DNA from: Baffinella frigidus | Taxonomy: Eukaryota > Cryptophyceae > Cryptomonadales > Baffinellaceae | NCBI GenBank assembly: GCA_026770585.1 | Contig: MU646377.1 | Location: forward strand, 56,391 to 86,752 | Length of the DNA stretch: 30,362 bases | Direction: 5' to 3' | Shown: one piece after another, positions 5,388 to 30,362 of the stretch | Position numbering within the stretch: position 1 is the stretch's first letter | Layout: each line of letters opens with the position of its first letter | The notes under the pieces: generated by a model | What the model was told of the DNA's origin: nothing | Databases searched by the model: none | The model's input: the letters and a program-made list of their open reading frames with translations, nothing else | Translations under genes and position numbers: made by a program

Positions 5388-5435
5388 CTGGCACGCGTCG
5401 CGGATCTCGTCTGCCCGCGCGAAGTCCTTCCCGGC
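5388..5435 (-). CDS. CARS: CysRS exon 20 ([12 protein letters not shown])
   Basis: Acceptor GGCAG|GCC, donor CAG|GTCAAT, phase 0 to 0. It encodes [16 protein letters not shown], the R.AKDF..AD.IRD.L block near the CysRS C-terminus. Confidence 0.88.
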
Positions 5436-8400
5436 CTGCCGTCACGCGTTTCGTGTTTAGCGTTTGGGGTTTGGGGTTTGGGGTTTATGGTTTGGGGTGT
5501 GAGGTTTAAAGTTTAGGTTGTAGGGTTTCGGGTGTAGGGTTTGGGTTTTGGGTGTGGGGGTTTGGGGGTTGGGGTTTGGGGTTTGGGGGCTGGGGGTTAG
5601 GGTTTAGGGTTTAGTGTTGAGGGTTTATTATTTAGGGGTTGGGGTTTAGGGGTTGAACCTTGGCCTCGAGCCTCTCCCCCAGCAGCTTCTTCAGGTCTGC
5701 TGGCGCCTCTTCTGCTCGGGGGTTTCGGGTTTCGGGTTTCGGGTTTAGGGTTTCGGGTTTCGAGTTTCGGGTTTAGGGTTTAGGGTTTAAGGTTTCGGGT
5801 TTAGGGTGTAGGGTTTAGGGTTTAGGGTTCAGGATTCAGGGTGTAGGACGGGGCTCCTCGCTCAGAAGTCAACCCAAGGCGGCAACTTAACGCCGCAGCT
5901 GCACAGGCTCTGGAGACGCCTCGCCAGATTGGAGGAGGGTGAATTTTCTAAACCCTATCAGGATAGGTGAATTTTCTAAACCCTATCAGGATAGGATTTG
6001 CAACTTTGAAAACCACTGCCTTGAGGGGAAATTGACTTTTGGCAACCCCTTCCAAGAATCTGGCGTGGCGAGGACAGAGTCTAGGACAGCACATGTTGTT
6101 TAAGTAAAGCATTTTCATTTCGGAACATACCATAATCTGTTGTGTATCTTGAGGCTTCCAACGCTTAAGATAAGGGCGGGTATGCCATTTTAGGCATAAA
6201 ACCAAGGCTTCGATGAGTGTACTTATTAATAGATTGTGTTATGCTATTTTAGGCACAACACTAAGTCTTAGATGAGTGCACTAATTCTTAGATGAGTGTT
6301 AATAGGTGACGTTTGTCTCGCGAGGCGGGGCGAACCTGCTTCAGAGGCAGAAGAGGCCTCTGCAAAGCCGGGCGGATCGTAGCACATTCCTAGCACCTGC
6401 TTCCGGGTGTGCGGTTTTGGGTTCAGTGCTTCAGGGTTCAGGGTTCAGGGTTCAGGGATCAGGGTTCAGGGTTCAGAGGTTCAGGGTTCAGAGTTCAGGG
6501 GTTGAGGGTTCAGGGCTCAAGGTTTAGGGTGCAGGGTTTAGGGTTCAGGGATTAGGGTTTCGGTTTTCGGGTTTCAAGTTTCGGGTTTCGGGTCTAGAGA
6601 CCAGGGTTTCGGGATCCAAGTCTAGGGATTAGGGTTCAGGTTCTAGGGTTGTCCCGATCGATCCTCCCTAGTGCGGCGCCCCCGGTTTCCATTTTCGGGT
6701 TTCGAATTTCGGGTTTCAGGATTCGGGCCTAGGGATTAGGGTTGGGTTAAGGGTTGCGACCTGGTCAATGCTCCCTAGCGCGGCCAGCGCCGCGGCGGCC
6801 CCTGCCGCATCCACCTGCTTTCGGGTTCCGGGTTTCGGGTTTCGGGTTCCGGGTTCCGAGTTTTGGGTGTCGAGTTTCGGGTGTCGGTTGTCGGGTTTCG
6901 GGTTTCGGGTTCCGGGTTCCGTTTGTTTGGTTTCGGGTTTCAGGTTCCAGGTTCCGGGTTTCGGATTTCAGGTTTCGGGTCTCGGGTTTCGGGTCTCGGG
7001 TTTCGGGCTGAAGGTCTCTCCTATCCTGAACAAGGTGGAAGAGCACTCTTCTATCCTGAGCAAGGTGGAAGAGCCTCTTCTTGATACCAACACGGCCGCC
7101 ATGCATTGCCCCCCACAGAGCCACAACCTGCCGTATTCCATACCGGATGAACCAACCGCGTGAACCCCATGCGTTTCCAGCCTAACCTCGAAACCCTCAA
7201 CCTCAAACCCTAGGGGGTTGGGGCCGAAGCGAGCGTCGTCACGATACGAGCCACAACCTACCATGTTCTCAACCACCGTAAAATTGATGAGCGTAACCTA
7301 GCTCCGAAGCCCCAAACCTTAGGGCTAACCTGGTCGGCGTTGAGCAGGTTCTCAGTAGCTTTGATGAGCGAGAAGAGGGGGCGCATGCGCGCAGCTTGTC
7401 CATCTTCTCGTTATCGCCACTTCAACAACGCCATGCCCCGAAACAACGCCCCCCCCACTGGTGCAAGATAGGCCCGCCTCCTGACAGACAGTCCCGCCTC
7501 AGAAGAGGCCCGCCTGAGGCTGGATGGGACGGACAGGCCCGCCTCAGAAGAGGCCCGCCTGAGGCTGGATGGGACGGACAGGCCCGCCTCAGAAGAGGCC
7601 CGCCTGAGGCTGGATGGGACGGACAGGCCCGCCTCGGTTTCGGGACCTGGTCGGAGTAGAGCGCCACAACCTACCGTATTCTCAACCATCGCAAAATTAA
7701 TGAGCGCAACCTAGCTCCGAAACCCCAAACCTTAGAGCTAACTTGGTCGGCGTTGAGCAGCTTCTCGGTAGCCTTGATCAGCGAGAAGAGGGACGCGCAT
7801 GCGCGCGGCGTGTTCATGTCATCCTTCATCGCCTCCTTGAACCTAGGTTGAGGGTATGGGGGGTTAGGGTTTGGGGTCTGGGGTCTGAGGTGTGGTGTGG
7901 GTGGGTGTGGGGCGTGGGGAGTCGGGTTCTCCCCACCACCCCTGCTTGGTGTTTTGGGGTGTGGGGTGTGTGGTGTTGGGTGTGTGGTATTGGATGTGGC
8001 TTTGATGAGCGAGAAGAGGGCGGTGCACGCGCGCGGGGTGTTGATCTCATCCTTCATCGCCTCCGTACCTTCACCGCCTCCGTAAACCTTATCGAGAGAG
8101 GCCTTTATTACTGCCAACAGATTCACTACTTCAAAACATTGTTCTGTGGTATCGTCAGGGTGGTATTCGCTACCTCAGCATCGGCATAGCCTTTACCATA
8201 GCACAAAACCCACCCCTAAGAGAGCAAAAAAAGTTGTGTAGATTGAATATGTTTCCGTATGAGATAGGAGGTTAGACGAGCGAGAAGAGGGCGGGGTGTT
8301 CACGTCGTCCTTCAATGCCTTACACCTAGTGCGAGATGCGAGGTTTGGGGTTTGGGGTCTAAGGGGTGTGGGGTTTAGGGTGTGGGGTTGAACCCTGAGA

Positions 8401-11400
8401 TGCATAAGTCTGCGTGATCCAATATTTGGGGTTTCAGGTTTGGGGTTTCGGGGTCGCAGTTTGGGATTCAGGGTTCGGGGTTTCCCATAAACCCTACACC
8501 TTAAGCCCCAACGGAACCCTAAACCCTAAACTGAACACCCCCCCAGGAGGGCATTCAGTATAACCCTGACCGAACCCTCCTAAACCCTAAACTATACACG
8601 ATGTAGGGTGCGGGGTTTGACCCAGCGATGCAGGAGTCAGCATGCCCCTTAACCTCCCCGCTAGTCGCTGCTTCCGCGTCGCCCGCGACCGCCTGTAACG
8701 CAAGGTGGACGAGAGCGTCAGCATTCAGTATAGGATGGGCCCGCCGGGTCAGCATTGAGTGTAGGATGGGCCCGCCAGCATTGAGTGTAGAATGGGCCCG
8801 CCGCGTGAGTCTAGGATGAGGCCGGCTCGGAGTCCAGGCGCCGCCCCGCCCGCGACCGCCTGGTGTGTGCCGTACCCTGAGCGGTGTGTGCTGGACACGT
8901 TCATAGGCTAACGTCCTGAAAACCGGGTAGTTAAGCCTACGGTATTGCGTACGGTAGGCCGTAGGGGCCTGGGGTGCGTCCTATGAAACCTTAGGTCCTG
9001 TTAACGTGTTGGTGTGTCCATCACTCAGTGGAGTGTGTTGAACACGTGTTAGACACTCACTCGTGTGTGTTGGACACTCGCGTGTTTGTCCAACACTCAC
9101 ACCGATATCGTGTCATCTGTACCACGAAACACTCTTCGCACGAAGCGTCGCGTGTGACGCAAGGTGGTGGAGGGCGTCAGCACGGAGTGTAGGATGGGCC
9201 CGCCTCGGGGTCCCGCCCGCTGCCGCCTGACCTCGCATAGAAAGAGGTTCAAAGGCGTGCGGGTATTTTTGAAGCACGAAAGGTCTGTATTTATATACAT
9301 GAAGGTGGGGAACACAATGGTGTATTGAGATAGGGATTATGGTTTAGGATGTAGGGTGTAGGGTGTAGGGTTTAGGGGAGGTTCCTGGAGCTTGGCGCGC
9401 CACTTGTCGAGCCTCTTCACCGTGTTTCTTGCACTCTGTCCGAAACCCCGAATTTAGGTTGAGGATGGGTAGGGTTCAGGGTTTGGGGTTCAGGTTTCAA
9501 GGTGCAGGGATACTTTGCGCGAATTCCAAAGACGCTTCACCGTGGTCCGCGCACTCTGTTCGAACCGCGAATCAGTACTTTGGAATTCGCGTCAATCAAT
9601 TAGATAGGCAGTGTGATTCCATGGCGGGCGCCCCTCTGTTGCGTTGGATCCAACTACGAAACTTAAACATGGAGGGCAGGCTCTGCTCGAACCCCGAAGC
9701 ACTTGGTCCAAATTGCGAAACATAGGAATGCCGGTTGTGTTGGTCTGATTAGCGCAAATTCCAAAGACGCTTCACTGTGTTCCGCGCACTACGAAACCCG
9801 AAACAAAATGTCAACTTTGTAGCCAGCCGAGGTCGCCAATCTAGTTGGTGCAGATCCTGAAGTTGACACTTTGTATGGGTGTTGACTTTAGCAACTTATT
9901 CCTGCTAGCATGTAATTAGAACTGATCGAATCAGTTATTGCCCGTTATTTTATTAGGCCGCATAGTTCCTTGACTAGCGCCAATTCCCAAATACTATCGA
10001 GTATAGAGTGTAAGATGTAGGGTATAGGGTGTAGGGTGTGTAGGGTGTAGAATGTAGGGTGTGGGGTGTAGGGTGTGGGGTGTGGGGTGTAAGGTGTAGG
10101 GTGTAGGGTGTAGGGTAGGGTGTAGGGTGTAGGGTGTAGGGTGTAGGGTATGTAGGGTGTAGGGTGTAGGGTGTAGGGTGTAGGGTATGTAGGGTGTAGG
10201 GTGTAGGGTGTAGGGTGTTGGGTGTTGGGGGGTGAGGGTACCGAAAGAGATTCCGGGGTGAAGTTGAGGCCCGCGCGGTACTGTAAGGACTTTAGAGTGT
10301 TTTTAGAGTTTAGGGTTTAGGGTGTAGGATTTAGTGGTTAGGGTGTAGGGTGTAGGGTGTAGGGTGTAGGGTGTAGAGTGTAAGGTGTGAAACGTAGGAT
10401 TTATAGTTTAAGATGGAGCTTAGGGTTTAGGGTGCAGGGTTTATGGTGAATTACATTGGAACTGGGGGTGAGGGTACCGAGAGAGATTCCGGGGTGAAGT
10501 TGAGGCCCGCGCGGTACTGCGAGGAGACCACCAGGTACCGGAACGCCCGCGCATCCAGCGCCGTCGTCAGCGTGTCGCGTACCTGCAATAGTATCCAGGG
10601 TTGAAGGGATTTGCGTCTGGGGTTTGGGGTGAGGGATTGCTGAGAGAAAGGTCCTGCACCCGACACGCTGACGACGTCCCGCACCTGGGGCGGTTGGTGG
10701 TGTCTCGCGCCACCGCTGATGCCCCGCACCTCGTGGCTTACTGTCTCGCGTCTCATGAGAGGGTACGGGTGCACGCCCGACTTCCGGCGTTGCGTATCAC
10801 CCTGCTGTAGTGCATTCGGTAGAGCTACTGCGAGGACGCCACCAGGTACGCGTCTATGATGCTGTCTTTCGAGTTCATGTTTTGAGGGGTTCACACAGTG
10901 GACTACGGACCTTTCATCAAAAGTCAACGTACCCTGTGGGTAGTTGACTTTGAGGATTTTCTGATTCAAATTTGGTCACGTTACCGCTAAATCTGGGGGT
11001 CCCGAAAGCCTCGAAGCCCACCGTGTGGTGGGCGCGCACCGCAGACTGTCCACACACAGCAGGAGTAACTTCGTTTTCGTGCTATTTTTTCTTGGTGGGG
11101 GTCTCCTCTGGTGGCCAGACAAGAGGCGAGAGGAGACTAGAGGCTGGGGGCCGCTGTACGGGGTAGTGTTTTCAAACGCCTGTTTCACCGTGAGGACGTT
11201 TCCGAGAGGAATTTTCTCTACGTGACCGTTTCCCAAACCCTAGACCCGAGACCCTAAGCCCTGAGCCCTAATGCCCAAACCCTAAGCACTCGCATCCCAC
11301 CTGGTCATACTCGAGCCGCTCCCCTCTCTCCCTGGTCCTGCTTAACCAGGCGAGTGTTGCAATCTTGGTGTTAACCTCATGCCTCAGATGGCATAAAAGT

Positions 11401-14400
11401 TCAATTTCTGGATTTTCGACGTCTTCCCGACCTGTCCTCGATTCCTGGCGGAGCCCATTTCAACAATAAAGGCCTCTCTCACCGTGAGGGAAATACATAA
11501 ACATTTATCTCACCGTGAGGAAGTTGCCGAGGGACTTGGACATCTTCTCGTTGTTGATGTTCACGAAGCCGTTGTGCACCCACACGCTGCAGTACTCGCA
11601 CCCACAGAACGCCTGTTGGGGGTTTAGGGTTTAGAGGTCGGAGTTTAGCATTCCAGCATCGTCAACTTTAGCCATTATTATGTTGATTTTGTGTGGCCAA
11701 CAAATACGAACAATATCTAGCTGCAGTACTCGCACCCGCAGACCGCCTGCGATCGGACACCGTTATTCATCCCAATTTATTGATACCAGCAATCCCTAAG
11801 TGATACATTGGAGTACCTAATTGCTACGTAGGTCTAATGACGGATCCCGTATTGCTAATTAGGAGTCCCTGTATACGGTAATAGGAAGCCGTTGTAAAAC
11901 ACACACGCTAACTCAAGTGCTCGCACCCGCAGAAGGTCTGCGAGATTACGGTTCAGAGACCTGTTTTGTTGCCACCAAATAAATCGAGCGAATCCCAATA
12001 AAGATATAATAGAAGCTAGTTGCTAATTATCAAATAGTGGCTGATTGTTATTAGCAATTCAACGGAAGAGTCCTCCGTTGAATTGCTGCCGATACGTCCG
12101 ATAAGGGCCGACATCGGTCCCCAGCTGATACAACCGGATAAGGAATTGTCCGATATTACTACCCTACAAAGGACACGGAAATAGAAAGGGTGCAGGACCT
12201 CGCTCTGAGCGATCTCGTTCTCGTGGTGCGGAAACGTCAGGTCCACCCTGGTTTCGGGTTTCAAATTGAGTGTTTAGGGTTTAAGGGTTTAGGATTTAGG
12301 GTTTAGGGTTTGGGGTTTAGGGTTTAGGGTTTAGGGTGTACCCCCCCGCGTGAATGTCGAACGAGTCCCCCAGATACCTGCAAACAAAGGCCTCTCAAAT
12401 TGACGCGTTCTCAAAGTTGACGCATTCTCAAAGTTAAAACGTTCTCAAAGTTGACATCGGGCGCTGTCAGGTTGTGAGTCCCGTGACGGTTGACTAAAAC
12501 GTGCAAGGTTTGTTCCCACAACTGTTGATTAAGCATCGCTTGCCCAGGTACAAACCCTAGCTCTATCTCGGTCTATTTGGGCTGATCAACTTGGTGGGCC
12601 TGGGCTGTTTCCCGCTCCAAAGTTGACGGATTCGTACCGCAATCCCAGCATGTCAAATTGAGAATTGTCGGTGGACCCGAGAAAGGCAGAGCTAGAAACC
12701 CTTCCCACTTCAGCGCAACCGCACTGGCACAAATTCAGCCAGGTTGAGACAACAGTCGGGGGACTCACTGGCTTGCTCGGTTGCGCTCGGCTGGCATCCG
12801 CTATGTACCACCCAGGACTTGCGATTTTACTGCTACCCAATAAATTTTGCGATTTTATTTGTACCCAATAATTTTTTATCATACGGCATTCTCGTACCTA
12901 AAAAATCCAGCCGAGTTTCGACAACAGTCGTGGGACGCTAGGGTCTTGGGGTTCGAGTTTAGGGTTCAGGGGTGAGGGGTTTAGGGTTTAGGGTACCGGC
13001 GGCTCATGGCCGAGCACTCGATGTGCCACCCCGGGCGGCCTTTCCCCAGCTTCGTCTCCCAGAACACCTCCCCGTCTTGCTCCTTGTACGCCTGCAGGGA
13101 GCAAGGAGGACAAGTTACGATAAAATACCGGTACACCCTCCAACCTCCAACCTGAACCCTAGACCCTGAACCTAAATTCTGAACCCTCAGCCCTAACCTC
13201 AAACTCTAGGGCCCTTATAAGCCTGCAAATAAGAGATATTAAGACCCCCTCAACCCGAAAACCTGAATCCTAAACCCTGAATCCTGGACCCTAAACCCTA
13301 AACCCTACCGGACTGGTCAACCCCAAACCCTAGACCCCGAACCCTACACACTACACCCCAAACGCTTACCCATGAAGCCTAAGCCTTGCAGCCCAAAGCC
13401 TATGGCCTTTCCCCGGCTTCCTCTCCCAAAACACGTCCCAGTCAGGCTCCGTATTGGCAGGCCTGCCAAGAGGATACGTCATGCTGCCGGACTGGTAAAC
13501 CGTGGTCCACCCTCCACCCTCCACCCTCCACCCTCCACCCTCCACACTCCACTGTAAACCCTAAGCCCTACACTTCCAACCCTACACCCCAAGCCCCACA
13601 CCCTAAACCCTAAACTATGAACCCCACAACCTACACTCTAAACCCTTCACCCTCAACCCTACACCGTACACCCCAACCCACAAACCCTAAACACCAACAC
13701 AGCAGACATGCAGACCTTTCACAGGACAAAATCGGGCGAATCGCAGGGTTTAGGATTCAGGGTTTAGATCTCAGGGGTCCAGGGGTTCGGGTTTAGGCTT
13801 GAGGGCAAACCTTCCAGAGGGCGAAATCGCGCGAATTAGCCTTCTCGAATTCGCTCGGGTCCGTGATCCCACCCCCCTGCGCCATTCCCGGGTTTAGAGT
13901 TTCGGGTTTCGGGATTAGCCACGCGCCATATAACACATTTAAACCAGACCTCCGGTACAAAAACGCGTTAAAAATGCCGTCTTTCCAATGCTTGTGGCGA
14001 ACCGAGTTGGGACGCTCCGGGGCCTCAACCCGTCGCGTACGGAAAAAGAGTACAACTGACGCAGTCGCCAGGCACGTACCCTAAACCCTCAACCCTCAAT
14101 CCCACACCCTAAATCCCACGCCCTAAACCCTAAACCCTAAACCCTAATGCCGAACCTCGGCGGCGCCGTCCTCCAAGCGTGTTAACTTTTCGCAGCCACG
14201 CGCCATACAACACGTTCAAAAAGGATCTCCGTTACAACAGAGCGTCAAAAACATCGTCTTTCCTGTGGATACGCGCAAACCGAGTTGGGACGCTTCGGAA
14301 CCCAAACCCTGTTCGCACACCCGACTGAGAAGCAACTGTGCGTGTCTGTACGGTCTAGTGGCGACACTTTCTGTAGCGATTTTGTGACACACACACTCTA

Positions 14401-17400
14401 AATTCTAAGTTTCACGTACGCCGACCGCGCGGAGCGCTCGCCCCGCCCCTCTCACCCCCAGCTGGCTGCACGCAGTGCTAGTCACGTCCCCCTCACCCAT
14501 CGCTGTTTGGCGCTACCCCGCCCCACCCGGGGGCGGACGCACTTCTGCAGAGGCCTCGCCAGGGCGTCGGGTTTCGGGTTTCGGGTTTCGGGTTTAGGGT
14601 TTCGGGTTTAGAAAGCACCTCGGCAGCGCCGTCCTCCATGTCATCGAAGTTGAGGCGCGCGAGTTTGCCGTACGTCGGGAAGGACTCCACCGAGAAGTAG
14701 TACGATCTGGCTTCAGGGTTGAGGGCTTAGGGTTTGGACGCCTGGCAAAGCCTGTTTTAGGTTTAGGGTTTGGCTTTCCCGTAGTTGAAGCCTGTTGTGG
14801 GTGTAGGGGTTGGGCTTCCCGTAGGTCGGGAACGACTCCACTGAGAAGTAATACGACCTGCGGTCAGGGTTGAAGTTTCGATTTGTGGGGTTGGGGGGTT
14901 GGGTTCTGGGGTTGTGGTTGATGTTTTAGGGCTCAGGATTTATGGTTTAGAGTCTGGGTTTAGGGATTAGGGTTCAGGGTTTTAGGGATTCGGGGGCGGC
15001 GACTGTCGAGAGAGAGAGTGCGAGAGAGAGAGGAGAGAGGAGAGAAAGAGCGAGAGCGAGAACCAGAGAGAGAGAGAGAGAGAGAGGAGATAGAAGGAGA
15101 GAAGGAGATGAGGGGTGGGGCGACTGACCCGTCTTTCTCGTACGCGGAGCCCTTCTCCACGAGACCCGAAATCATTTCGACCTGGGTTAGGGGTTCGTGT
15201 TAGGGTTTCGTGTTGGGGTTTCGGGTTCGGGTTTCGGGTTAGGGTTTCGGGTCAGCGTTTCGGGTTAGCGTTTCGGGTAAGGGTGCAGGGATTGGGGATT
15301 GGGGATTAATGGTCAAGCTTAAGGGTTCAGGGTTCAGGGTTTAGAGTTTAGGGTTTCGAGTTCAGAGTGTAGGGTTTAGTGTTCAGGGTTTAGGGTTTAG
15401 AGGTGAGGGGTGAGGTGTGAGGTGTGAGGGGTGAGGGGTGAGGGGTCAGGGTGTGGGGTTAGGGTGTGGTGGTTAGGATGAACCAGACAATTACGGGAAT
15501 GTACTGGGGTTTGAGATTCCGGGTTCCGGGTTCCGGGTTTAGGGCGTAGGGCATGGGGTTCCAGGTTGAGGTTTGAGGGGTTTGGGTTTAGGGTTGAAGA
15601 GCGTAGGGTTTGGAAGTGTAGGGTTACCATTTCGGGTATGTGCTGGGGTTGCGACGCGTGTTTATCTGGGGTTGCACCCCTGGTTTACTTGGGGTTTAGC
15701 GGTTACCATTTCAGGAATATGCTGGGTGGCGCGCGGGTAGATGCGCGCAGGCACGATGTTGAGCGTTGCCAGGTCGTCCATGAATGCCTGGGGTTGGGGT
15801 TGGAGTTGGAGTTGGCGTTGGAGTTGGAGTTTAGGGGTTGGGATGGGGGGGGTAGGATTTTGGGAGAAGGGTTTGGGCTTTCAGGGTTTAGGGTTTGGGA
15901 GGATAGGGTTACCCTGTGCAAACTTATCGGTGAGGGGCTGGAGCTTGACGTTGTCTCGCCAAAACCTAAACCCTCACACCTAAACCCTGGACCCTACACC
16001 TAAACTCATAGCCCTCAACCCTGACCCTAAACGCTAAGCCTGTGCGAACTGGTCGGTGAGGGACGGAGCTCGACGTCGTGACACCAAGCCCTAACCCCTA
16101 ACCCCAAACCCTAAACTCAAATCCCTAAAATCCCAAACCACCAACGCGAAAAGCTTTAACCGTTAACCTAAACTCTGACCTGCACGAACTTGCCCTCAAC
16201 CCTCAACCCAGACCCTAAACCCTAAGCCTGTGCAAACTTGTCTCTAAGGGCCTGCAATTTGACGTTGTCGCGTTGCATCCACTGGCTGATCTTGGGAAAC
16301 CTCTACCATAATAAACACACGTTTTCTTCGTCTAACCCCTAAACATCAAGCCCATAACCTGTGCAAACTTATCGGTGAGGGTCTGGAGCTTGATCATGCC
16401 ATCAAGCATCCGCTAGATGATCTTGGGAAACCCCTAGCGTCATAAACACACGTGTTCTTCGTCTGAACCCGAAACGCAAAGGTTGATAATCTGGGCGAAC
16501 TTGTCCGTAAGGGCCTGGAGGTTGATGTTGTCACGCGGCATCCCTACCGTAATAAACGCACTTTTTCTTCTTCTAACACCCAGACCCTAAACCCTCAACC
16601 CGAGACCCTGAAAAAACAAAGGGTGATAACCTGGGCGAACTTGTCCGTAAGGGCCTGCAAGTTGATGTTGTCGCGCTGCATCCTCTGGATGATCTTGTCG
16701 TCCACGTCCGTCAGGTTGCACACCTGGTGTTGCATTCCGGCTTGGGGTTTGGGTGTGGAGATTAGGGTTTGGGTGTGTGCGACTGTTGAATGACTCGAAC
16801 CTTTTCTGGTGCTGGATTAGGTCTTGGGGGCGAATATGGGCGCTGAGTTCAGGGTTTTAGGGTGCAGGGTGTAGGGGTTTAGGGGGTACGTGATCGACGT
16901 CGTGTCCCGTGTAGGCGAGTCAGCGCTTCAGAAGATCGTAGGTCAGGATGTGGGGGTTTGCGGTTTGCGGTTTTTAGGGTTGAAACCATAAACCCTAAAA
17001 CCGTACACCCTACCCGCCCTCCCCAGAATGCTGAACCCTGAGGCGCACGTGGGTTTGGGGTTGTGGGGTTGGTGGGGTTAGTGTGTAGGGTTGATTGTTT
17101 AGAGGTTAGGGGTTAGGGGTAAGGGTTGTGAGCCCTTGAACCCTAAGGGGTGTAGGTTTCAGGGGGTACGTGATCGACGTCGTAGCCCCTATACCCTAAA
17201 CCCTATACCCCTAAAACCTAAATCTGAAACCGTACACCAGAAAACCTCAACCCTGAACCCCCAACCCTCAACACTAAACGTTACGTGATCGACGTCGTAG
17301 CCAGCGTAGGCGAGCCAGCGCTTGAGAAGATCGTAGGTCAGAAACGCCCGGAAGTTCCCTGCAGAGCGATTGCTGTTCAGCCGATTGATACAGTAGCTAA

Positions 17401-20443: not shown

Positions 20444-20454
20444 CGTGGTGGTGC

Positions 20455-20679: not shown

Positions 20680-20823
20680 TGTCTACCTCCGTCCCAAGTG
20701 TATTTCGGCTCGCCAATTTGGTGAGCCCGGCCTCTTTTCGGTCCAAAGTTGCTGGATTTTGTCCCGCAAATCCAATATGTCAACTTGAGAATAGTCGGTC
20801 AACCCGGGTGAGGCAGGGCTAGG
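20680..20823 (-). mobile_element. TIR intronic element, family 1
   Basis: An inverted copy: CGCCAATTTGGTGAGCC, then AATATGTCAACTTGAGAATA and CCGGGTGAGGCAGGGCTAG. It lies in the 5' part of the plus-strand gene. Confidence 0.8.
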
Positions 20824-20824
20824 C

Positions 20825-21208: not shown

Positions 21209-21247
<39 letters not shown>

Positions 21248-21251
21248 ACCC

Positions 21252-21470: not shown

Positions 21471-21664
21471 GGTCGGGTCGGGAAACCCGACCATGAGAAG
21501 TGCAGCGAGACACCCCCCCCAGGGCCCCCCGGCATCCAACGCCAGCTCCTCCCCTCCCTCCGAAACGCCTGACAGACCCGGTTGTTCTTCGGGCATACGC
21601 TCCTAGTATAACCCATTGGGGCTGGGGGCACAGCGAGCGCGGGCCCTGAACTGTTAAACTCTTT

Positions 21665-21775
21665 CGATCCAGCATCTCGTACAAGTTCTGGCCCCACGCC
21701 ATCGCCTACCGGACACAAATTGAACCCTAAACCCTGAACTCCCAGGGCGAGCGAGGGCCGCCCTTGCTCGCTTTG
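21665..21775 (+). pseudogene. Ghost copy of carboxypeptidase 5' region
   Basis: ACAAGTTCTGGCCCCACGCC and the following 40 bases are identical to 21968 onward; then CCCAGGGCGAGCGAGGGC parallels TCAGAGCGAGCGAGGGC before diverging. Confidence 0.8.
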
Positions 21776-22032
21776 GACTCTAGACCTGTCGCCTCTGGGT
21801 CCTACTGAACCCTGAATCATCAACCCTCAACTCCAGGCGCCCTAAAGAACCTTGAGCCTAAAGAACCCTGAATCCTGAACCCTGAGCTCAGGTCCTAACG
21901 AACCTTGAATGCTGAAGCCTGAACTCCCTTGGGGGGCAGAGCGAGAGAGGGCGGCACAGCCTCTTGTACAAGTTCTGGCCCCACGCCATCGCCTACCGGA
22001 CACAAATTGAACCCTACGCCCTTCACTCTCAG

Positions 22033-22110
22033 AGCGAGCGAGGGCGGTACAGCGCGACGCCGGCGTCTGTGGTCGCTCCAGCTACCGGGCTGCCATGTGT
22101 GCGGGCCAAG
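22033..22110 (+). CDS. D-Ala-D-Ala carboxypeptidase exon a (ends VRAK)
   Basis: Acceptor TCTCAG|AGC (start inferred), donor AAG|GTCATC, phase 0. It encodes SERGRYSATPASVVAPATGL then PCVRAK. VRAK joined to AYAVVDGDTG in the next exon reproduces the family start (..AKAY...D..TG). Upstream, LYKFWPHAIAYRTQ (21964-22005) is duplicated at 21680-21721 and may be a further exon. Confidence 0.6.
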
Positions 22111-25100
22111 GTCATCTCATTCACACGCCCGAAACCCGAAACACGGAAACCCAGAACGCTGAACCCGAAACGCTAAATGCGAAAGACGGAACGCGGTAGC
22201 TCCAGCCACCGGGTTGCCGAGCGTGCGGGCCACGGTCTGATCTCATCCGGGAACCGGAAACACGAAACCCGAAACGCAAGACCCGGAACCCGGAACCCGG
22301 AACCCGAAACCGGGAATCCTGCACTATACACTCGAAACCCGAAACCCAAACCCCTGAGCCATAAACCCTAAAGAGCCGCTCGCTGGGTTAATTTCCAGGT
22401 GTGCGTTTAGAAGGAGGTACTCAAGTCAGGTTTTAGTGCAGGACTAGGTGCAGGCGAGACAGGGTGAAACTGAATTAAGCGTGTTTCCGGGGGAAAGGCG
22501 TACGCGGTTGTCGACGGCGACATTGGGGAGATGCTGGTAGGTGCTGATAGGGTCAAGTCCTGGGGTTCAAATTGTGAGTTTAGGCCTGGGTGAAACTTCA
22601 TGAAACAACGTGAAATAGCGTGAAACTGAACTAAGCGTGTTCCTGGATGGAAGATTTCGTTAAACTGAATCACGCGTGTTCCCACATGAAAGCCAGTGCT
22701 GAATTAATCATGTTTTGGGGGGAAAGGCGTACGCGGTGGTGGATGGAGACACGGGGGAGATGCTGGTCGGCGGCTCCCACAACTTCCGTCGCCCAATCGC
22801 CTCTCTCACAAAGGTGGGGAATCCACGACGGTTGACTGATCCGCGCGCGGTTTGTACCAGGATCAGGACGAGACCGGCGCGGTTAGTACCAGGAAAAGTG
22901 ATGGTTAGTCAACCCGCTGTAGGAGGAGGCGCCCAATCGCCTCTCTCACAAAGGTACTTTTCATAGCCTGGCCATCCCCCCGATGTGTACTCCGTGTCGC
23001 CGGAAATCGGTCACTCCTGGTACAAATCCGACTGAATCAGACCCAGCGAAAAGGGGGAGATGTAGGGAGGCGTACACACCGTCCGCCTCCAGATCACCTC
23101 TCACACAAAGATGGGGAATTGCTCCTTATTTTCTTTACAGCCTCGCGTAATAAAGTCCAGCCTAGAGTAATAAAGTGTATTGCTTTCAAGTCCCGCAACG
23201 GTTGACTGATCCGTTCAGTGTTTGTACCAGGAGGTGGACGAGACCGGGCACGGTTAGTACCAGGAAACGTGATGGTTAGTCAACTGCTGTGGGAGGAGGC
23301 GCCCGATCGCCTCGCTCTCAAAGGTCGACAGTCCCGCAGCTGTTGGCTCCACACGGCGGACTTCGAAGGGATTTCGTGAACAACCCATACGCGATAAAGC
23401 ATACGACCCTGGGGTAGGAAATAGCGTAGGGACATATGGGGGTTCCTACGGATGAGTTACCTGATTTTGATTGGGATGTGGCCATATTTCCCCTTCGTAG
23501 CCCACTGTGTGAGCTCCTCCTGAAAGTGTTCGCCGAGTTGACTTCACCTCTTCCAAAACCCGTTTCACGAGAGTCAACGCGTGTCAACTTTGGGGGCACA
23601 CGTTTCAAGTCAACGTGTGTCAACTTTGGAAAGTTGACAAGTGTCAACTTTGGGGCGCAGGTGATGACGTGCATGATAGTGGTGGACCTGGCCGCGCGCG
23701 ACGAGCGGATCCTCGAGGAGCAACTCCTCGTCTCGGTCCGTCCTAATTCCCCTTACGGGTTATTTTGAAAGTCGTTGTGTGAGTTTGTACCGGGCATGAC
23801 AACCTGATCATATGTGCACTGGGTATGCCAACAACCTTAAGTTGTGTGTACTGGGCGTGGAAATGTTAAGTTGACACGAAACGGTGTGTGCGCGACGCGC
23901 GGATCCTCGAGGAACAACTCCGCGTCTCGGTCCGTCCTCCACGCCAGATTCTTGGAAGGGGTCGCCAAAAGTCAATTCCCCTGAAGAAATAAGGGGAAAA
24001 TATTTAGTTTTGGCATAGTTGAACGCCAAAGTTGGCAAGGGAGTGACCCCCTCGAGCACTCTGGCGTGGCACGAAACAGTAATGTTCCAGATGTGCGGAT
24101 CCTCGATGAGCGAGTCCGCGTCTCGGTCTGCCAAACGCACCCTTGGAACCCCAAAGCCAATTCGGCCCCTCACGGCTGGACACAGGGGTTACTTTAGAAC
24201 GCGATTGTATGAGTTTGTACTGGGTATGACTATATGACTGTCTTAACGTGTTTGTACTGGGTATGAAAACAGATACACCCTCTGTCAAGTTGACAACCGT
24301 AAGTTGACACGAAATGGTATATGCGCGATGAGCAAGTCGTCGTCTCGTTCCGTTCTGGGCTTGGGTGTGGGGTCAAGGCTAGGAATGATTTATGTTGTAA
24401 TGCGTGTGTATGAGTTTGTACTGGGTGTGGCAATCTTGACATGTTTGTTCTTGGTATCCAACCCCTACACCCTAACCCCTCCTTCCCCATCAGGACGCTG
24501 CCTCGCGTATTATCGGAACACCGGCGCAGCTACATACCAGAGCCTAGTGTTTGATTAGCCGGAGCAGGCCTGCGCCTAAGATTTAATTAGGCCGCCTAAT
24601 GATTGACAGCGCAGAACACCCCGCAGGAGGCCGCATCCCGCATCATCGGGACATCCGCGCGTTTGCGGAGTGGCGACTGCCTCTCAGTGCGCCACGCGCT
24701 CCTTGCTATGATGTTACCCTCTGGTAATCCCGAAACCCTGAACCCTAACCTAAAACCCGAGATCCGAAATCCTAAATCTGAGACCCGAAACCCGAAACCC
24801 TTCACTCGAAACCCTACATCCGAAACCCTGCACCCTGAACCCTAACCACAACCCCCACTCCCCAAACGCAGGCAACGACGCCGCATGGGCGCTGGCCGAG
24901 CACTTCGGTATGCGGCTCTACGCTCGGAGGGTCGCGGCGAGCAGGTCCGCTGCCTGAACTCTCAACCCTGCACCCTAAACCCTAAACCCTACACCCTGAA
25001 ATCTAAACCATGAACCCTAAACCCTAAACCATGAAGCCTAAACCCTAAACCCTAAACCCTAAACCCTAAACCCTAAACCCTAAACCCCAAACCCTAAACC

Positions 25101-28100
25101 CTTAACCCTAAACCCTAAACTATAAACCCTCAACCCTAAAACCTAAACACTTAACCCTCAACTCTAAACTCTAAACCCTAAACCTGGACCCTCCGGGACA
25201 CCCTTAACCTAAAGCCAGAACCCTACACGCTTGACCGTAACCCCTACACCCTAACCCCTCAACCCTGAGCGAGCAGGCGAGCAAGGAAGGTTCGGGAGGA
25301 GAGGGGGAGGGAGGCGCTTGAGGTGTGCCCCCTTGCCACCCAATGGCTCGAATCACCGCACCACACACGCACCAAAACACCCCCTGCCTCTCCCCTTGAT
25401 TGAGTCACCATACAAGCACCAAAGAAACTCCCTGCCTCCGTGTTGGGGTGTGGGGTTTGGGGTTTGGCTCGTGCACTGCCTCTTCTGCTAGACTGTTGCA
25501 GCCACTACGGCGGTGTGCTGGCAAGTCGCAACAATGGGCAAGCAAATCGGAACTTTTGCTATTTTCAAAGATCAAAGTTGGCACGTTGTTGTACCAGCAC
25601 CATCAACGTTTACCATTTCTGCACCGGTGTTTGCACTGCTGCGCTGCGCCTTTGAATCTGGCGCGGGTAGGTGTCGCGTGCGGTATTGGACTAGGGTGCA
25701 CCCTAGGGCTGTCTCATGTAGTATTGGGTTACGGTGGGCGCTGAGGTGTTCAACAGCCCTCACAGAAAGCTCAAATCACTTTTGTCCTTCTATTTTTGGG
25801 TAAAAAACAGCTGCAGTCAAGTCAAATTCCGAGGCTTACTATGCCACACCGATTTAGGATTTGAGCGCCCTCTGAGAGCTGGTGGGTCTCATGCGGTATT
25901 CGACTACGGCAGGTGCTAGGGCTCCTACAAGAGACGGGGTCCTAAAAGCCCTAGACCAATCACGTACTCTGGCAGAATACGTACGTGGTCCACGGAGCCT
26001 TGCTCGACCAATCTCATCTTGGAAGATAACTGAATCACTTCTTTTTCAATAGGAGCTTGAATAGGAGAAAATCGTTGGCGCATAGTACATCTAATTAGGC
26101 CTCCTAATTAAATCAAGAAAACGCTAATTAGGGAACTGGTTCAGTTACCTTTCGAGATGAAATGAAGAGCTCTGACCCTGGGGCGGTGTTTCAGGATAAT
26201 GTGATCAACTCGGCGCTACCGAGCGGAAATGAAGCGCTCGAGATCCTCGGCGGAAAGCAAAGAGATGCCACCCACGACCCTGTCAGCAACTGGTACCCGC
26301 CCGTTTCATCTAGGATTTAGAGAATTTGGAGTTCCCCGCAATTGGTTGAGACCCTCAAAGGCGGAAAGCCCCTAGCCCTTGTGGGCTACAGGTCAGGGTG
26401 TGGTCCGTCAGGGGTAGGGGTTTAAGGGTTTCTCAACGTTGAGTCAACAACTGGCACGAGCCCTTCTCAGTGCTTGGGCGGGTTTCTTTTTGGCGGGGGG
26501 CGTTTAGGGGTCAGGGGTGACGGGTTAGGGTTTAGGGACTACACTAGATGCAAAAACAAATCAGATAACGGTTGCAGGTTTCAAGGGTTTGGGGACGGAG
26601 GGCTGAGCCACTTTCGTGGACCACGTTTTGCAGGTTGGCGGAAACGAATTTTTACTCTGCGCATCCAAACCCCTACACCCTACACCCTAAACCCTGAACC
26701 CAGGCACCTGAAACTCAAAACCCTGAACCCTCAATTCTGAACCCTGCAGGGTGGCGGAAATCCATAAAATGAACATCTACGCAGCGCATCTACAGCTCCT
26801 CTCGGCCCACTCGGGTTGGCAACCTATTCTCTGGTTGACATTCCGAGTGTGTCAACTTACCGGAATGTCAACTTACGATTTGTACAAACCCGTCAACTTT
26901 GGGGGTGGAATGGCAGGGTGGCGGAGATGAACTTCTACGCGGCGCATCTCCAGCTCCTCTCGACCCACTTCGAGAACCCCCACGGGTGCTCCCCCACCTC
27001 CCGTACAAAACGTTGAACAACTTTTAAGAGTTGACTTTCAGCGGGGATGTACATCCATGGAATGAGGGACCACGTTCATACACTGCGCATCCATCACACA
27101 CGAGGGGGAGGGTTGTCCCGAGGCTGTCTTTTGCCCTGTAGTTCGAGATCGGTCTCGTCCCTAAATGGCCTCCTGCTTCGAAGAGTTGGGGTCACCCCTC
27201 GCCTTTTGCAGGTACAAACCGGACGCGTGTGCGACACACCCATAAAGGGTGGAGGCGCATCCATAAAATGAGGGCCCACATTCATACACTGCGCATTCAT
27301 AACCTCTCCCCCTCGGTGCAAAGTTACAATTTGCCCTGAACACTAAACCGTTTCCCATCGGGTGTAGGATGAGCCAGCGGTGGCACCTCTCGACAGCGCG
27401 CGACGCCGCCGCCCTCACCGTCGCGGCCCTCCAGCGCCCCCTCTTCCTGCGCGTTGTCGGCACCGCTGAAGCTACCATCCCGGTATTTCCCCTCCTTGGA
27501 TCTGCGGTCACGAGGTTTGGGATTGGTCACGCGGTGCTAGTGCCCTCATTAACCGCCGGATAAGGCACGTTAACCTCCGGATAAGGCACGTGCGTCTCTC
27601 ACCGTCACCCCCTCTTCCGGCGCGTTGTCGGCACCGCCCAAGCCACCATCCCGGCATGCCCCCCCCTGGGTGTTTTTGTACGGGAATTGGAGCCGATCGT
27701 TCAAACTCAGCCGGGAAATGGCTCCAGGGACGCCTCCCCTCTAAGGGGGGTTGAGGGTTTTGGGGGCGCTTACACGCCCAATGTTCCAAGGGGCAATCGT
27801 CGAAGCTACTGTCTCGGTCCGGCCCCGAACCCCTAAACCCTAAAACCCTGAACCCAAAGACCTTGAAACTCAAAAACCTAAGCCGTAAAAGCTAAGCCCC
27901 TGAACCCCTGAGACCCTGAACTCTAAACCCCCGAAACCGTTAACCCTTGACACTAAACCCTAAACCCCAAACCCTTGAGACCCTGAAGACCCTTGAAACT
28001 CTACACCCTAACTCCTGATCCCCAGTTCCTAAACCATAAACTATGAGACCCGGACCCCCAAACCCAAACCGCAATCCCTAGAACCTATCGCCGAACCCCA

Positions 28101-30362
28101 AGTGTAAAACGTGCTGAGTGGGGACGAGCCTGGCCCTCAACCCCTAACCCCTTAAAATCCTGAACTTCAAACTCTAAACCCTTGAAACCCTTCAAACCCT
28201 GGAAACCCTGAATCAAAACCTTCCCCAAACACCAAACTTTTTCCTCTTCTTGATTACCCTCAAAAAAAGACCTCGAGAGAGGTCCTCCAGCCTTTTGAAA
28301 AGTGATCAACTTACTACTTCTCGAATACCGCGATGTGGCGGGCGGGCTTGACTCCCTTTCAAACCCTGAATCCTAACCGCATACCCCAGGTGCGCAACGA
28401 GATGAACAAAGAGCAGCCAGAACGGGAAATGACGTACCAGGTTCTAAACCCTAAACCCTAAACCCTAAACCCTAAACCCTAAACCCCACACCCTAAACCC
28501 TAAACCCCACACCCCAAACACCACAACCCCAAACCCTGCCCCCCAAACCCCAAAACCCCAAACCCTAAACCCCAAAACCCCAAACCCTAAAACCCAAACC
28601 CCAAACCCCAAATTCTAAACCCTAAACCCCAAAATCTAAACTCTAAACCCTAAACCCTAAACCCTAAACCCTAAACCCTAAACCCTAAACACCTATACCA
28701 GAACACGAACGCGCTTCTGGCAGAGGGACACTTCGGCGTAAAAACAGGTGCGCGCTCAGCCACCCGAAACCCGAAACCCGAAACCCTAAATCCCGCACCC
28801 TAGCCCCCAGATGCAGCTTCTCCGTCTTTCTCCTGACAACTCGACTTCCTTCCTCGTTTTGGAAATGCTAATTTGCACCCATTTTCACGTCAAACGCTAC
28901 TCGAGTACCGCTCAGAAGGCTACGTGGAACCAGCAGCCCCGGATATCCAGGGTAACGTGACCCATTTCCAATACAAATTGAAGAAACGGATCCAATTCCG
29001 GTTCAAACGTGTTTCCTGTAGCCTTTTGAGAGGACTGGGACCTCCCTTGAGAGTTTAAAGTGAAACACGTAACACTGGTTGGCCTATTTGTGTTTTCAAA
29101 TTATCGATTCAAAATTAGGCCGATTTGTACCCAGACCCCAAACTCTGAACCCTAAACCCTGTTTGCCGATCATACCCGCAACTCTCCTCGTCAGCCTATT
29201 AACCCTCCTCCCCCTTCTCTTTCACACATTTCACTATTAATAGTATGACCCAATTGTTGAGCGATTTTGACGAAAATTGCTAACCAATTGGGTCATACTA
29301 GTAATAGAGACTAGGTCCGACCCCGTAACAAAAACCTAAACCTCCAATCCTCAACCCTCAACCCTAAACCCTAAACCCTAAACTCTAAACCCTAAACCCA
29401 GAACCGAAACCGAATGGACGGCCCCTGTCTCGCAAGTCATCACACGTACCACCGCAAGGGGGGCCTGAGATGAGGCCTGCCCTAGGATGCTAAGACAATG
29501 GTGTCCTTTGTTGCGAGTAACCCCAGTGCTTTCACAGCAGAGACGACTCCTGCAGAAGGGCACTGTCTTGCGTCTGCAAAGTGGGCCCACTTTATCACGG
29601 GCACCGCCGCTGGGGGGTCCCTAGGTTCCTAGTGTCCTTAGCTCCAAGGAATAAGCCAAACGTAGGACCCTTAGCTCCTAGGAATAAGCCTAACGTAGGA
29701 CCCTTAGCTCCTAGGCGTAAGCCAAACGTAGGACCCTTAGCTCCTAGGAATAAGCCTAACGTAGGACCCTTAAATTACTACACGAATGGTTGACTATTAC
29801 TAGTATGATGCGTTGCTATTGCTAGTATTTTTCAACCCTAAACAGTAAAACCAAACGGCAGGGACAACTCCCGCCGCAGGGCACTGTCTCGCGACTGCGA
29901 AGCGGGTCCCTCCAGAGAGAGTTTGATTGGATACCAATCACTATTACTAGTATGACTCAATCGTGTGGCAATTTGGTTGCAAAAACTAATAGTTTTATTC
30001 ATTTTGAACTTTGGAGACGGCTCCCGCAGTAGTATTATCCTGCTGACTCGTAGTATTATCGTGCTGTCTAATAGTATTTTAGTGCTGACCCCACACCATC
30101 CCCCACGCCAACCGCAGGGACAACTCCAGAGACGACTCCCGCAGTAGTAGTATCCTGCTGACTAATAGTATTATAGTGCTGACTACCACACCCTTCCCCT
30201 GACCACCAACCGCAGGGACGACCCCAGCCGCAGGGCACTGTCTCGCGTCTGCAAAGCGGGTCCCTCTCGGTAACCCCCAAACCCCAAACCCTAAACCCCA
30301 AACCCCAAACCCCAAACCCCAAACCCCAAACCCCAAACCCCAAACCCCAAACCCCAAACCCC
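22033..30362 (+). CDS. D-alanyl-D-alanine carboxypeptidase (peptidase S11, PBP type), multi-exon, partial at right edge
   Basis: This is a serine DD-peptidase that removes the terminal D-Ala of peptidoglycan stem peptides. Ten exons join in phase to give AYAVVDGDTGEML, RPIASLTK (catalytic Ser and Lys), a helical segment, GTSARLRSGD, LPSGND (SxN motif), ALAEHFG, MNFYAAHLQLLS, FENPHG, HLSTARDAAALT, NTNALLAEGHFGVKTG (KTG motif) and TTPAAGHCLASAKR. All three catalytic boxes are intact. The gene has spliceosomal introns and host-like repeats, so it is nuclear. By analogy with moss and prasinophyte plastid peptidoglycan genes the product probably acts in the plastid; this is inference. The 3' end lies beyond 30362 and the 5' exons are uncertain. 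Confidence 0.88.
22190..22226 (+). pseudogene. Ghost copy of carboxypeptidase exon a end
   Basis: GTAGCTCCAGCCACCGGGTT matches GTCGCTCCAGCTACCGGGCT of exon a; it then keeps GTGCGGGCCA and loses the donor context. Confidence 0.82.
22492..22552 (+). pseudogene. Ghost copy of carboxypeptidase exon b start
   Basis: GGGGGAAAG| followed by a frame reading AYAVVDGDIGEMLVGA, against AYAVVDGDTGEMLVGG in the live exon. Most base differences are synonymous, which is unusual for a dead copy. Confidence 0.9.
22727..22813 (+). CDS. Carboxypeptidase exon b (SLTK active site)
   Basis: Acceptor GGAAAG|GCG, donor AAG|GTGGGG, phase 0 to 0. It encodes AYAVVDGDTGEMLVGGSHNF then RRPIASLTK. SLTK is the SxxK box with the nucleophilic serine. 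Confidence 0.92.
22930..23325 (+). pseudogene. Three ghost copies of carboxypeptidase exon b end
   Basis: CGCCCAATCGCCTCTCTCAC then AAAGGT at 22930-22956 is nearly identical to the SLTK end with its donor. 23086-23117 and 23298-23325 are diverged. The intervening sequence (GTACCAGGA...GATGGTTAGTCAAC) is also duplicated at 22855-22920 and 23224-23285. Confidence 0.85.
23661..23735 (+). CDS. Carboxypeptidase exon c (VMTCMIVVDL)
   Basis: Acceptor GCGCAG|GTG, donor TCG|GTCCGT, phase 0 to 0. It encodes VMTCMIVVDLAARDERILEE then QLLVS, the helix after SxxK (family MTA..VLE). Three decayed copies follow it. Confidence 0.9.
23880..24360 (+). pseudogene. Three ghost copies of carboxypeptidase exon c end
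   Basis: Copies at 23880-23940, 24093-24135 and 24318-24360 repeat the RDERILEEQLLVS|donor segment, spaced about 200-230 bases apart. The nearest keeps GCGGATCCTCGAGGA and GTCTCGGTCCGTCCT; the farthest keeps only CGTCTCGTTCCGTTC. Confidence 0.88.
23938..24068. mobile_element. TIR element, family 5
   Basis: The left end CACGCCAGATTCTTGGAAGG and the right end ...GAGCACTCTGGCGTGG are inverted. A related inverted copy of its left arm is at 6022-6066 (CTTTTGGCAACCCCTTCCAA). It sits between ghost copies of exon c. Confidence 0.7.
24492..24535 (+). pseudogene. Ghost copy of carboxypeptidase exon d start
   Basis: CAG|GACGCTGCCTCGCGTATTA reads DAASRIIGTPA, against EAASRIIGTSA in the live exon. Third-position changes dominate. 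Confidence 0.85.
24627..24723 (+). CDS. Carboxypeptidase exon d (GTSARLRSGD..LPSG)
   Basis: Acceptor CCGCAG|GAG, donor TCTG|GTAATC, phase 0 to 1. It encodes EAASRIIGTSARLRSGDCLS then VRHALLAMMLPS plus the first base of Gly. It carries the Ser and half the Gly codon of the SxN motif. Confidence 0.92.
24872..24944 (+). CDS. Carboxypeptidase exon e (ND.AWALAEHFG)
   Basis: Acceptor ACGCAG|GC completes the Gly of SGN. It encodes NDAAWALAEHFGMRLYARRV then AAS, with donor AGCAG|GTCCGC in phase 2, matching exon f. Another donor at TTCG|GTATGC would break the phase. Confidence 0.88.
24955..25265. repeat. Telomere-like array, nearly perfect CCCTAAA
   Basis: It contains about 8 consecutive perfect CCCTAAA units near 25030-25086, the cleanest run in the window. 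It fills the start of the intron after carboxypeptidase exon e. Confidence 0.93.
25270..26600. other. Long intron interior, no gene supported
   Basis: About 1.3 kb between carboxypeptidase exons e and f. It holds a thrice-repeated word like TCATGCGGTATTCGACTACG (25675, 25713, 25890), AATTAGG-rich pieces near 26095, and a telomere-like tract at 26500-26540. No coding segment of the enzyme was found here. Confidence 0.5.
26616..26815 (+). pseudogene. Two ghost copies of carboxypeptidase exon f (upstream)
   Basis: 26745-26815 reads VAEIHKMNIYAAHLQLLSAH and then diverges before NPHG, with a six-base in-frame insertion. 26616-26672 keeps only the acceptor and the first 30-40 bases. Confidence 0.87.
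26917..26985 (+). CDS. Carboxypeptidase exon f (MNFYAAHLQLL..FENPHG)
   Basis: Acceptor GGCAG|G, donor CACGG|GTGCTC, phase 2 to 2. It encodes VAEMNFYAAHLQLLSTHFEN then PHG, the MN..A..LGM..T.F.NPHG block. A near copy at 26745-26815 lacks the NPHG end. Confidence 0.92.
27044..27302 (+). pseudogene. Two ghost copies of carboxypeptidase exon f start (downstream)
   Basis: 27044-27098 and 27247-27302 share CATCCATAAAATGAGGG-type and ACACTGCGCATCCAT-type segments related to ATGAACATCTACGCAGCGCA. They resemble each other more than the live exon. Confidence 0.65.
27368..27482 (+). CDS. Carboxypeptidase exon g (HLSTARDAAALT)
   Basis: Acceptor GTGTAG|G in phase 2, donor CCG|GTATTT in phase 0. It encodes MSQRWHLSTARDAAALTVAA then LQRPLFLRVVGTAEATIP. 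NPHG followed shortly by H.STARD is typical of S11 enzymes. Confidence 0.9.
27588..27660 (+). pseudogene. Ghost copy of carboxypeptidase exon g end
   Basis: CGGCGCGTTGTCGGCACCGC followed by CATCCCGGCATG repeats the FLRVVGTA..TIP donor end. The donor GT has become GC. Confidence 0.82.
27825..28250. repeat. Degenerate telomere-like tract
   Basis: CCCTGAAACC and CCCTTGAAACC variants with irregular spacing, between carboxypeptidase exons g and h. No gene seen. Confidence 0.8.
28390..28440 (+). CDS. Carboxypeptidase exon h (linker)
   Basis: Acceptor CCCCAG|GTG, donor CAG|GTTCTA, phase 0 to 0. It encodes VRNEMNKEQPEREMTYQ. It has the right place and phase between the STARD and NTN blocks. Confidence 0.82.
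28441..28692. repeat. Telomere-like array with CCCTAAA and CCCCAAA blocks
   Basis: Clean CCCTAAA runs flank a CCCCAAA-rich middle. The whole intron between exons h and i is essentially repeat. Confidence 0.93.
28702..28747 (+). CDS. Carboxypeptidase exon i (NTNALL..GVKT)
   Basis: Acceptor ACCAG|AAC, donor ACAG|GTGCGC, phase 0 to 1. It encodes NTNALLAEGHFGVKT plus the first base of Gly. It holds the KT of the KTG box. Confidence 0.93.
29233..29308. mobile_element. Small TIR element, family 6
   Basis: CTATTAATAGTATGACCCAA and TTGGGTCATACTAGTAATAG are inverted around an AT-rich core of about 35 bases. Related ends occur at 29793-29830 and 29940-29990. Confidence 0.75.
29536..29592 (+). pseudogene. 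Ghost copy of carboxypeptidase exon j (first)
   Basis: CAG|AGACGACTCCTGCAGAAGG reads TTPAEGHCLASAKWAH. It is in phase but lacks the first G of the KTG glycine codon and the VPLG|GT donor. Confidence 0.82.
29638..29771. repeat. 33-bp tandem repeat, about 4 copies
   Basis: The unit contains AGCTCCTAGGAATAAGCCTA and ACGTAGGACCCTT, with AAGCCAAACG and AAGCCTAACG variants mixed. It lies in the intron before carboxypeptidase exon j. Confidence 0.9.
29860..29912 (+). pseudogene. Near-intact copy of carboxypeptidase exon j without donor
   Basis: GGCAG|GGACAACTCCCGCCGCA reads GTTPAAGHCLATAKRVPP. The acceptor is good, but the donor CTCG|GTAACC is replaced by CTCCAGAGAG with no GT, so the copy at 30216 is preferred. 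Confidence 0.82.
30005..30150 (+). pseudogene. Short relics of carboxypeptidase exon j start
   Basis: GGAGACGGCTCCCGCAGTAG (30005-30024) and GCAGGGACAACTCCAGAGAC then GACTCCCGCAGTAG (30115-30148) repeat the exon j acceptor and first 15-20 bases. They are mixed with a short tandem GTAGTATTATCCTGCTGACT. Confidence 0.7.
30216..30269 (+). CDS. Carboxypeptidase exon j (G-TTPAAGHCLASAKR)
   Basis: Acceptor CCGCAG|GG completes the KTG glycine. It encodes TTPAAGHCLASAKRVPL with donor CTCG|GTAACC, phase 1. It matches the family's KTG.T..AG.CL..SA.R. The next exon lies outside the window. Confidence 0.88.
30276..30362. repeat. CCCCAAA array at the right edge
   Basis: About 11-12 near-perfect CCCCAAA units immediately after the exon j donor. 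The array continues past the window. Confidence 0.93.

Follow-up and report, generated by a model that had tools for sequence, protein, structure and literature searches.

Partial exon copies beside their source exons in Baffinella frigidus: probable scars of short direct duplications at staggered breaks

Exons of Baffinella frigidus are accompanied by partial, direct copies of themselves in the adjacent introns, and the copies lie in a fixed order: those upstream of an exon repeat its 5′ part and those downstream repeat its 3′ part. The copies were studied in a stretch of 30,362 nucleotides (the window) from an assembly of 382 Mb in 1364 contigs, and exons of further genes, located on different contigs, have them too. 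Probably they were left by short-range direct duplications that arose repeatedly at staggered breaks, in many cases together with an insert. The first-pass annotation of the window had suggested a recurring local process such as template switching or break repair. A recurring local break-repair process fits the copies, whereas template switching, in the sense of a copy pasted elsewhere, predicts the observed order at a frequency of 0.51, against 50 of 52 copies seen.

Genes of the window and copies of their exons

The minus strand of the window carries the gene for cysteinyl-tRNA synthetase (CysRS; 5388-17358), with 15 mapped exons from C1 (17285-17358) to C15 (5388-5435) and with the 5′ end of the gene outside the map. 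The closest organism-named match is a protein of Guillardia theta, a cryptophyte, with 67% identity over 90% of the query. On the plus strand lies a peptidase S11 gene (D-Ala-D-Ala carboxypeptidase-like; 22727-30259) with nine mapped exons, from S2 (22727-22813) to S10 (30216-30259); a gene of this kind is here divided into many exons in a eukaryotic genome. Both exon maps are homology-based, combining HMMs of outside homologues with splice sites fitted by hand. AG precedes all 24 mapped exons and GT follows 23 of them (the exception, C12, has GA), scores that are partly by construction, the borders having been hand-picked to match AG/GT. The joined reading frame breaks at C12/C13 and S5/S6, and joins beyond these are putative. 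The intron after C12 (exon end 9385) starts with GA, and the C12 border is possibly misassigned.

After masking of telomere-like 7-mers, each exon with 60 bp on either side was searched against the surrounding DNA as far as the next exon on each side, up to a limit of 3 kb, or of 1.5 kb past the end of the gene. For the 24 window exons, 46 direct matches and one inverted match exceeded the 99th percentile of 100 shuffles; the copies are thus in excess of the shuffled expectation and, as had been proposed, keep the orientation of the exon. At least 18 exon bases are contained in 33 of the 46 direct matches, and their sources are 16 of the 24 exons with one to five copies each, in agreement with the earlier count of at least 15 exons of two genes with one to five partial copies. 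Under a stricter cut (exon alone, score above all 60 shuffles, within 1 kb), counted over 22 exons with two dropped, 14 exons had 30 direct and no inverted copies. Self-BLAST of the whole masked window gave 52 direct and 10 inverted pairs. Several copies are matched independently by the HMMs, clearly so at 8066-7986 (E 3e-6) and 16293-16228 (E 0.005) and weakly for the rest.

Most copies are fragments. Thirty of the 33 are partial and three are near-whole (C13 7270-7418, S10 29537 and S10 29858), so the statement that this is not whole-exon tandem duplication largely holds. Among the 28 partial copies on the matching side, 22 come within 3 bp of the exon edge or run beyond it and all 28 come within 10 bp; the description of the copies as reaching the exon edge is therefore mostly accurate. 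The splice junction and some intron are often included, several alignments crossing the junction into the intron, which also bears out the earlier argument against retroposition. Copy lengths in the window range from 19 to 149 bp, with no fixed target-site-duplication length. Mismatches between copy and exon amount to 8.4%, 6.3% and 19.7% at codon positions 1, 2 and 3 (44 of 55 copies examined), and because of this divergence an assembly doubling is an unlikely source of the copies. Eight of the 44 codon-scored copies are frame-shifted, and three show no mismatch over 23-41 aligned exon bases. The codon rates fit a copy that changes neutrally together with synonymous change in the exon, although third positions diverge rather more than twice as much as positions 1 and 2.

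Along the CysRS gene (all exons on the minus strand), the 3′ part of C1 recurs downstream at 16893-16946; an additional match at 17169-17182 (14 bp, 13 exon bases) falls under the 18-bp cut. C2 (16631-16723) has 3′-part copies downstream at 16484-16543, 16354-16376 (with 16406-16425), 16232-16294 and 16044-16062, and a weak HMM match at 15914-15967. The least secure copies are the short, weak 3′-part copy at 15628-15646, downstream of C3 (15707-15787), and the weak copy of C15 at 4994-5025, past the last mapped exon. C5 (14619-14706) is flanked on both sides, by a 5′-part copy upstream (14819-14854) and a 3′-part copy downstream (14157-14175). C6 (13811-13876) has a 3′-part copy downstream at 13714-13741 and C7 (12997-13091) a 5′-part copy upstream at 13404-13450. 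The KMSKS exon C10 (11514-11612) has 5′-part copies upstream at 11720-11747 and 11885-11934 and a 3′-part copy downstream at 11185-11213. The 3′-part copy downstream of C11 (10478-10582), at 10241-10289, is 94% identical and, in unmasked sequence, extends through the donor site; a mid-exon match of C11 lies at 10826-10849. C13 (7743-7842) has 5′-part copies upstream at 8002-8064 and 8291-8320, and its near-whole copy, downstream, carries about 60 bp of intron. In a further alignment set, self-matches hid several close copies, and non-self alignments alone were used.

In the peptidase gene (all exons on the plus strand), S2, which contains the SLTK motif, has a 5′-part copy upstream at 22470-22541 and 3′-part copies downstream at 22930-22955, 23053-23119 and 23300-23325. 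Copies of the 3′ part of S3 (23661-23735) lie downstream at 23890-23938, 24095-24128 and 24326-24351, and that of S7 (27368-27482) at 27608-27670. Upstream copies of the 5′ part are found for S4 (24627-24723) at 24491-24527 and for S6 (26917-26985) at 26769-26811 and 26630-26664. The near-whole copies of S10 are both upstream, at 29858-29912 and 29537-29588, and any of the three may be the exon in use.

Copies at other genes and the order of the copies

The gene for CCT-alpha (L023), on another contig, was mapped base by base into 18 exons, and their joined translation equals exactly the transcript-derived protein P0241. P0241, which bears an MMETSP transcript label, shows 100% identity to CCT-alpha over the aligned 40% of the X-filled query; a protein with an organism label starting 'Hemise' is 80% identical. 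The intron at L023 8640 starts with GC and not GT, and the exon join there is confirmed by P0241. Copies occur at six of the 17 exons tested, with eight direct matches and one borderline inverted match (score 26.0, threshold 24.5). None of the CCT-alpha copies is included in P0241, a search that covers this one protein, other isoforms apart. The first four L023 anchors (three copies on two of them, none inverted) were left out in favour of the base-exact map. Eleven further exon anchors (three in L024, two in L025, one in L026, three in L029, one in L030 and one in L031), which are HMM match cores and hence partial exons, yielded 14 direct and no inverted copies: one in L024, one in L026, nine in L029, of which the copy at 8278 is marginal, and three in L031, with no copies at five of the 11 anchors. 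Over 144 kb of readable DNA, pairs within 1 kb number 316 direct and 59 inverted. Elsewhere in the genome, two uninterrupted HSP70 matches (G000:C709:130108-134621) lie on opposite strands with equal scores, divergent and ∼870 bases apart, in contrast to the other sampled genes, which are all split.

Many introns consist largely of telomere-like sequence. The masked telomere-like share of the window is 26.1%, against 7.5% in a local shuffle; 39 introns average 52%, with 19 at least half and six below a tenth telomere-like, and the CCT-alpha exons hold 41 such bases in 1659. In three genes, 71%, 86% and 92% of the masked intron bases have the C-rich form on the coding strand. Degenerate heptamers (CCCTAAA variants) fill most of many introns, in the window and in L023 (3619-3813, 4253-4423 and 6857-7005).

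The order of the copies is nearly invariant. It holds for 50 of 52 exon copies, namely 20 of 21 upstream copies with the 5′ part and 30 of 31 downstream copies with the 3′ part; by set, 28 of 30 in the window, eight of eight in CCT-alpha and 14 of 14 at the other exon anchors. The two exceptions, both in the window, are a mid-exon piece of C2, 20 bp long and next to a larger 3′ copy, and the mid-exon C11 match, of 24 bp. The corresponding binomial figure, 3.1e-13, overstates certainty, because copies of one exon are not independent. On non-exon tiles the same order was found in only 38 of 89 cases (17/46, 17/38 and, for L023, 4/5), although the few intron tiles of L023 thus also lie mostly on the near side. 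Events were then simulated on the window exon map with the window copy lengths and 32 of the 33 observed offsets as inputs. The model of duplication around a break gave an order of 1.00, a value that follows from its requirement that the exon stay whole; pasting elsewhere at the observed distances gave 0.51. The exon was destroyed in 43% of exon-touching events. Near-whole copies made up 0.16 and 0.09 in the two models, compared with 3/33 observed, which does not separate them. From the order of 50 in 52, therefore, duplication of a stretch around a break is most likely.

The events may be pictured as follows. At a staggered break, fill-in on both sides would leave the joint flanked by two copies of one stretch B (about 20-60 bp), giving A-B-[insert]-B-C; the two would often be parted by other DNA. 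Were B to lie inside an intron, the scar would decay freely on both sides. Were it to overlap an exon, the event would survive only if one side kept the whole exon, that is, if B spanned the splice junction; the second B would then stay in the intron as a noncoding fragment, with 3′ parts downstream and 5′ parts upstream. In the model, survival of the whole exon explains why the copies include the exon edge. Scars at exons would remain visible for longer, because the working copy hardly changes.

Intervening DNA, exon borders and alternative origins

Young pairs (at least 96% identical, over the 144 kb) were counted as 33 spaced and none contiguous, but two or more of these, among them window 7483 and 29652, in fact sit in contiguous TRF tandem arrays; the median copy is 30 bp and the median offset 186 bp. 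Contiguous tandem duplications of 15-45 bp are also present by TRF. Two young contiguous arrays, at 7483-7635 (45 bp × 3.4) and 29636-29772 (33 bp × 4.2), indicate that adjacent duplications form as well. Several young copies extend, by eye, past the masked match. L029 offers an example: a 37-bp segment of exon tail and donor region recurs, with one difference, beyond a spacer of about 115 bp that resembles, by eye, a dispersed element of the window. Identification of the spacers with known dispersed elements was nevertheless rejected, the enrichment being slight (0.316 for spacers against 0.234 for random intervals, 39 pairs of at least 95% identity). Telomere-like filler as the link between copies was likewise discarded: a direct repeat (score at least 28) flanks 22 of 92 arrays (24%) and 69 of 273 random non-array gaps (25%). 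For intron gain with duplicated target sites, no repeat signature was found at 39 introns.

Two dispersed repeats of the window were noted on the way. One, of ∼60-140 bp, occurs in both orientations at 3304-3381, 12555-12695, 17655-17796, 18263-18328, 18704-18845 and 20685-20823; by eye it is possibly a short element with inverted ends, and a similar fragment lies between the exon-tail copies of L029. The other (23931-23986 and 6020-6078) is 90% identical in opposite orientation, and its copy at 23931-23986 begins where the S3 copy at 23890-23938 ends.

Three other origins of the copies were weighed against duplication at staggered breaks. Ordinary tandem duplication, through slippage during replication or through unequal exchange, would have the copy spacing as its unit; the middle of each unit would afterwards have decayed or become overwritten with telomere-like repeats and mobile elements. 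This origin matches the order rule equally well, by the same logic, and contiguous tandem arrays are present. Moreover, spacing recurs in the C2 and S3 arrays, that of C2 resembling a plain tandem repeat with units of 120-190 bp, and the spacer is similar to the DNA beyond the copy (p ≤ 0.05) in 14 of 32 copies, a count that multi-copy arrays inflate. The youngest pairs, however, do not support whole-unit tandem duplication as the sole route: none of the 33 was counted as contiguous (at least two of them miscounted), and the spacers of several young copies (S2 22930, S7 27608 and C10 11720) are unrelated to the DNA past the copy. This origin is accordingly considered unlikely, if well above negligible. 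Highly improbable is templated insertion, in which a nearby stretch is pasted at an intron break by polymerase-theta-like end joining or by template switching at a fork. Short copies at 70-900 bp and mostly unrelated spacers would suit it, but it predicts random order (0.51) and both orientations, against the 50 of 52 and the 46:1 ratio at window exons; the 316:59 ratio over 144 kb shows that some inverted copies do form. Least probable of all is an origin from whole-exon tandem duplications, in the manner of alternative or mutually exclusive exons, followed by loss of one end. The three near-whole copies of C13 and S10 and the coding-like excess at third positions are consistent with them. 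Yet only three of 33 copies are near-whole, no copy appears in the CCT-alpha transcript-derived protein (one isoform), and upstream copies should hold 3′ parts about as often as 5′ parts, whereas 20 of 21 hold 5′ parts.

It had also been proposed that the process acts at exon-intron borders. The copies do reach the exon edges, but local direct copies are carried by intron and intergenic tiles as well; their rate there is 33%-82% of that at exons, according to which control is used. When exons were blocked from the subject sequence, the copies numbered 51 on 101 intron tiles, 41 on 96 intergenic tiles and 31 on 24 exons. A laxer control gave 126 copies on 113 intron tiles, 52 on 100 intergenic tiles and 30 on 22 exons, with direct copies at 61, 37 and 14 of these units, respectively, and 14, 21 and no inverted copies; strong copies (score at least 45) were carried by 27% of intron tiles, 8% of intergenic tiles and 50% of exons. 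In L023, eight copies on 17 exons compare with five on 30 intron tiles. A border-specific process, with breaks tied for example to splicing, transcription or nucleosome position, would in part share its mechanism with duplication at staggered breaks and differ in where the breaks fall. That it makes most of the copies is very unlikely. The exons-blocked control speaks for it (1.29 copies per exon, 0.50 per intron tile), as do the young window pairs (at least 92% identical), five of nine touching exons and covering 10.0% of exon and 3.4% of intron bases. In the laxer control, however, the rates are 1.36 per exon and 1.12 per intron tile, and L023 shows no excess (three of seven young pairs touching exons; 4.8% of exon and 5.9% of intron bases). 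Furthermore, survival alone would suffice for edge inclusion. Some excess at exons is to be expected from the slower decay of an exon compared with an intron partner; by our estimate a pair of exon and ghost can be recognised for about twice the time of an intron pair, accounting for about a factor of two. Slower decay thus covers much, perhaps not all, of the excess, and an excess of copies at exon borders is possible. A bolder reading, that breaks or nicks fall preferentially at exon-intron borders, for instance through co-transcriptional R-loops at the start of telomere-like introns, and that introns lengthen mainly because such breaks are repaired with inserts, is quite unlikely; if true, each exon would be a recorder of local damage.

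Relation to known processes and implications

The first-pass annotation knew of no named element of this kind, but related processes are in print. Small tandem duplications from staggered-break fill-in by CST-guided Pol alpha-primase are described in human and mouse cells (PMC8355091), the introduction of which cites such work in plants and other species, and in potato an intron arose from a duplication spanning an intron-exon boundary (PMC4974935). The duplications of PMC8355091 and those of the alga are alike short, direct, local and order-preserving, with break repair as the source of the former and the probable source of the latter. Tested against that pattern, the copies show direct orientation and collinear order; head-to-tail adjacency is seen in none of the 33 young pairs as counted, at least two being miscounted. 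In contrast to the events of PMC8355091, most copies in the alga are separated, old, decayed and very dense around exons, and the enzymes would be assigned by analogy. As in the alga, a splice junction lies within the duplicated segment in the potato case and in internal gene duplication (Gao and Lynch, 2009), but in those cases a new intron arises, whereas in the alga existing introns lengthen. Tandem duplication and break repair are among the routes of intron gain in a review (PMC3443670).

The search that recovered the copies was itself a comparison of each exon with the DNA around it. Introners occur in protists among other eukaryotes. They too are repeated intronic DNA, but form mobile families inserted at many genes (PMC9860276), whereas the copies in the alga, as recovered, repeat the exon next to them; the word cryptophyte does not occur in the main text of PMC9860276. 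The literature search found no report of partial exon copies flanking cryptophyte exons, which is no proof of absence, and no genome with such scars at the majority of a gene's exons.

For gene finders the copies are a caution, as intronic homology matches may be scars and not exons. If they are such scars, intronic exon copies mark places of break repair that in neutral DNA would be lost from view with time; these stay locatable because the constrained exon keeps one duplication partner nearly unchanged. The order of the copies tells duplication around a break apart from copy-and-paste, and the test could be run on any intron-rich genome. For the alga itself, the copies suggest a route by which introns lengthen, and its introns would record past DNA damage.
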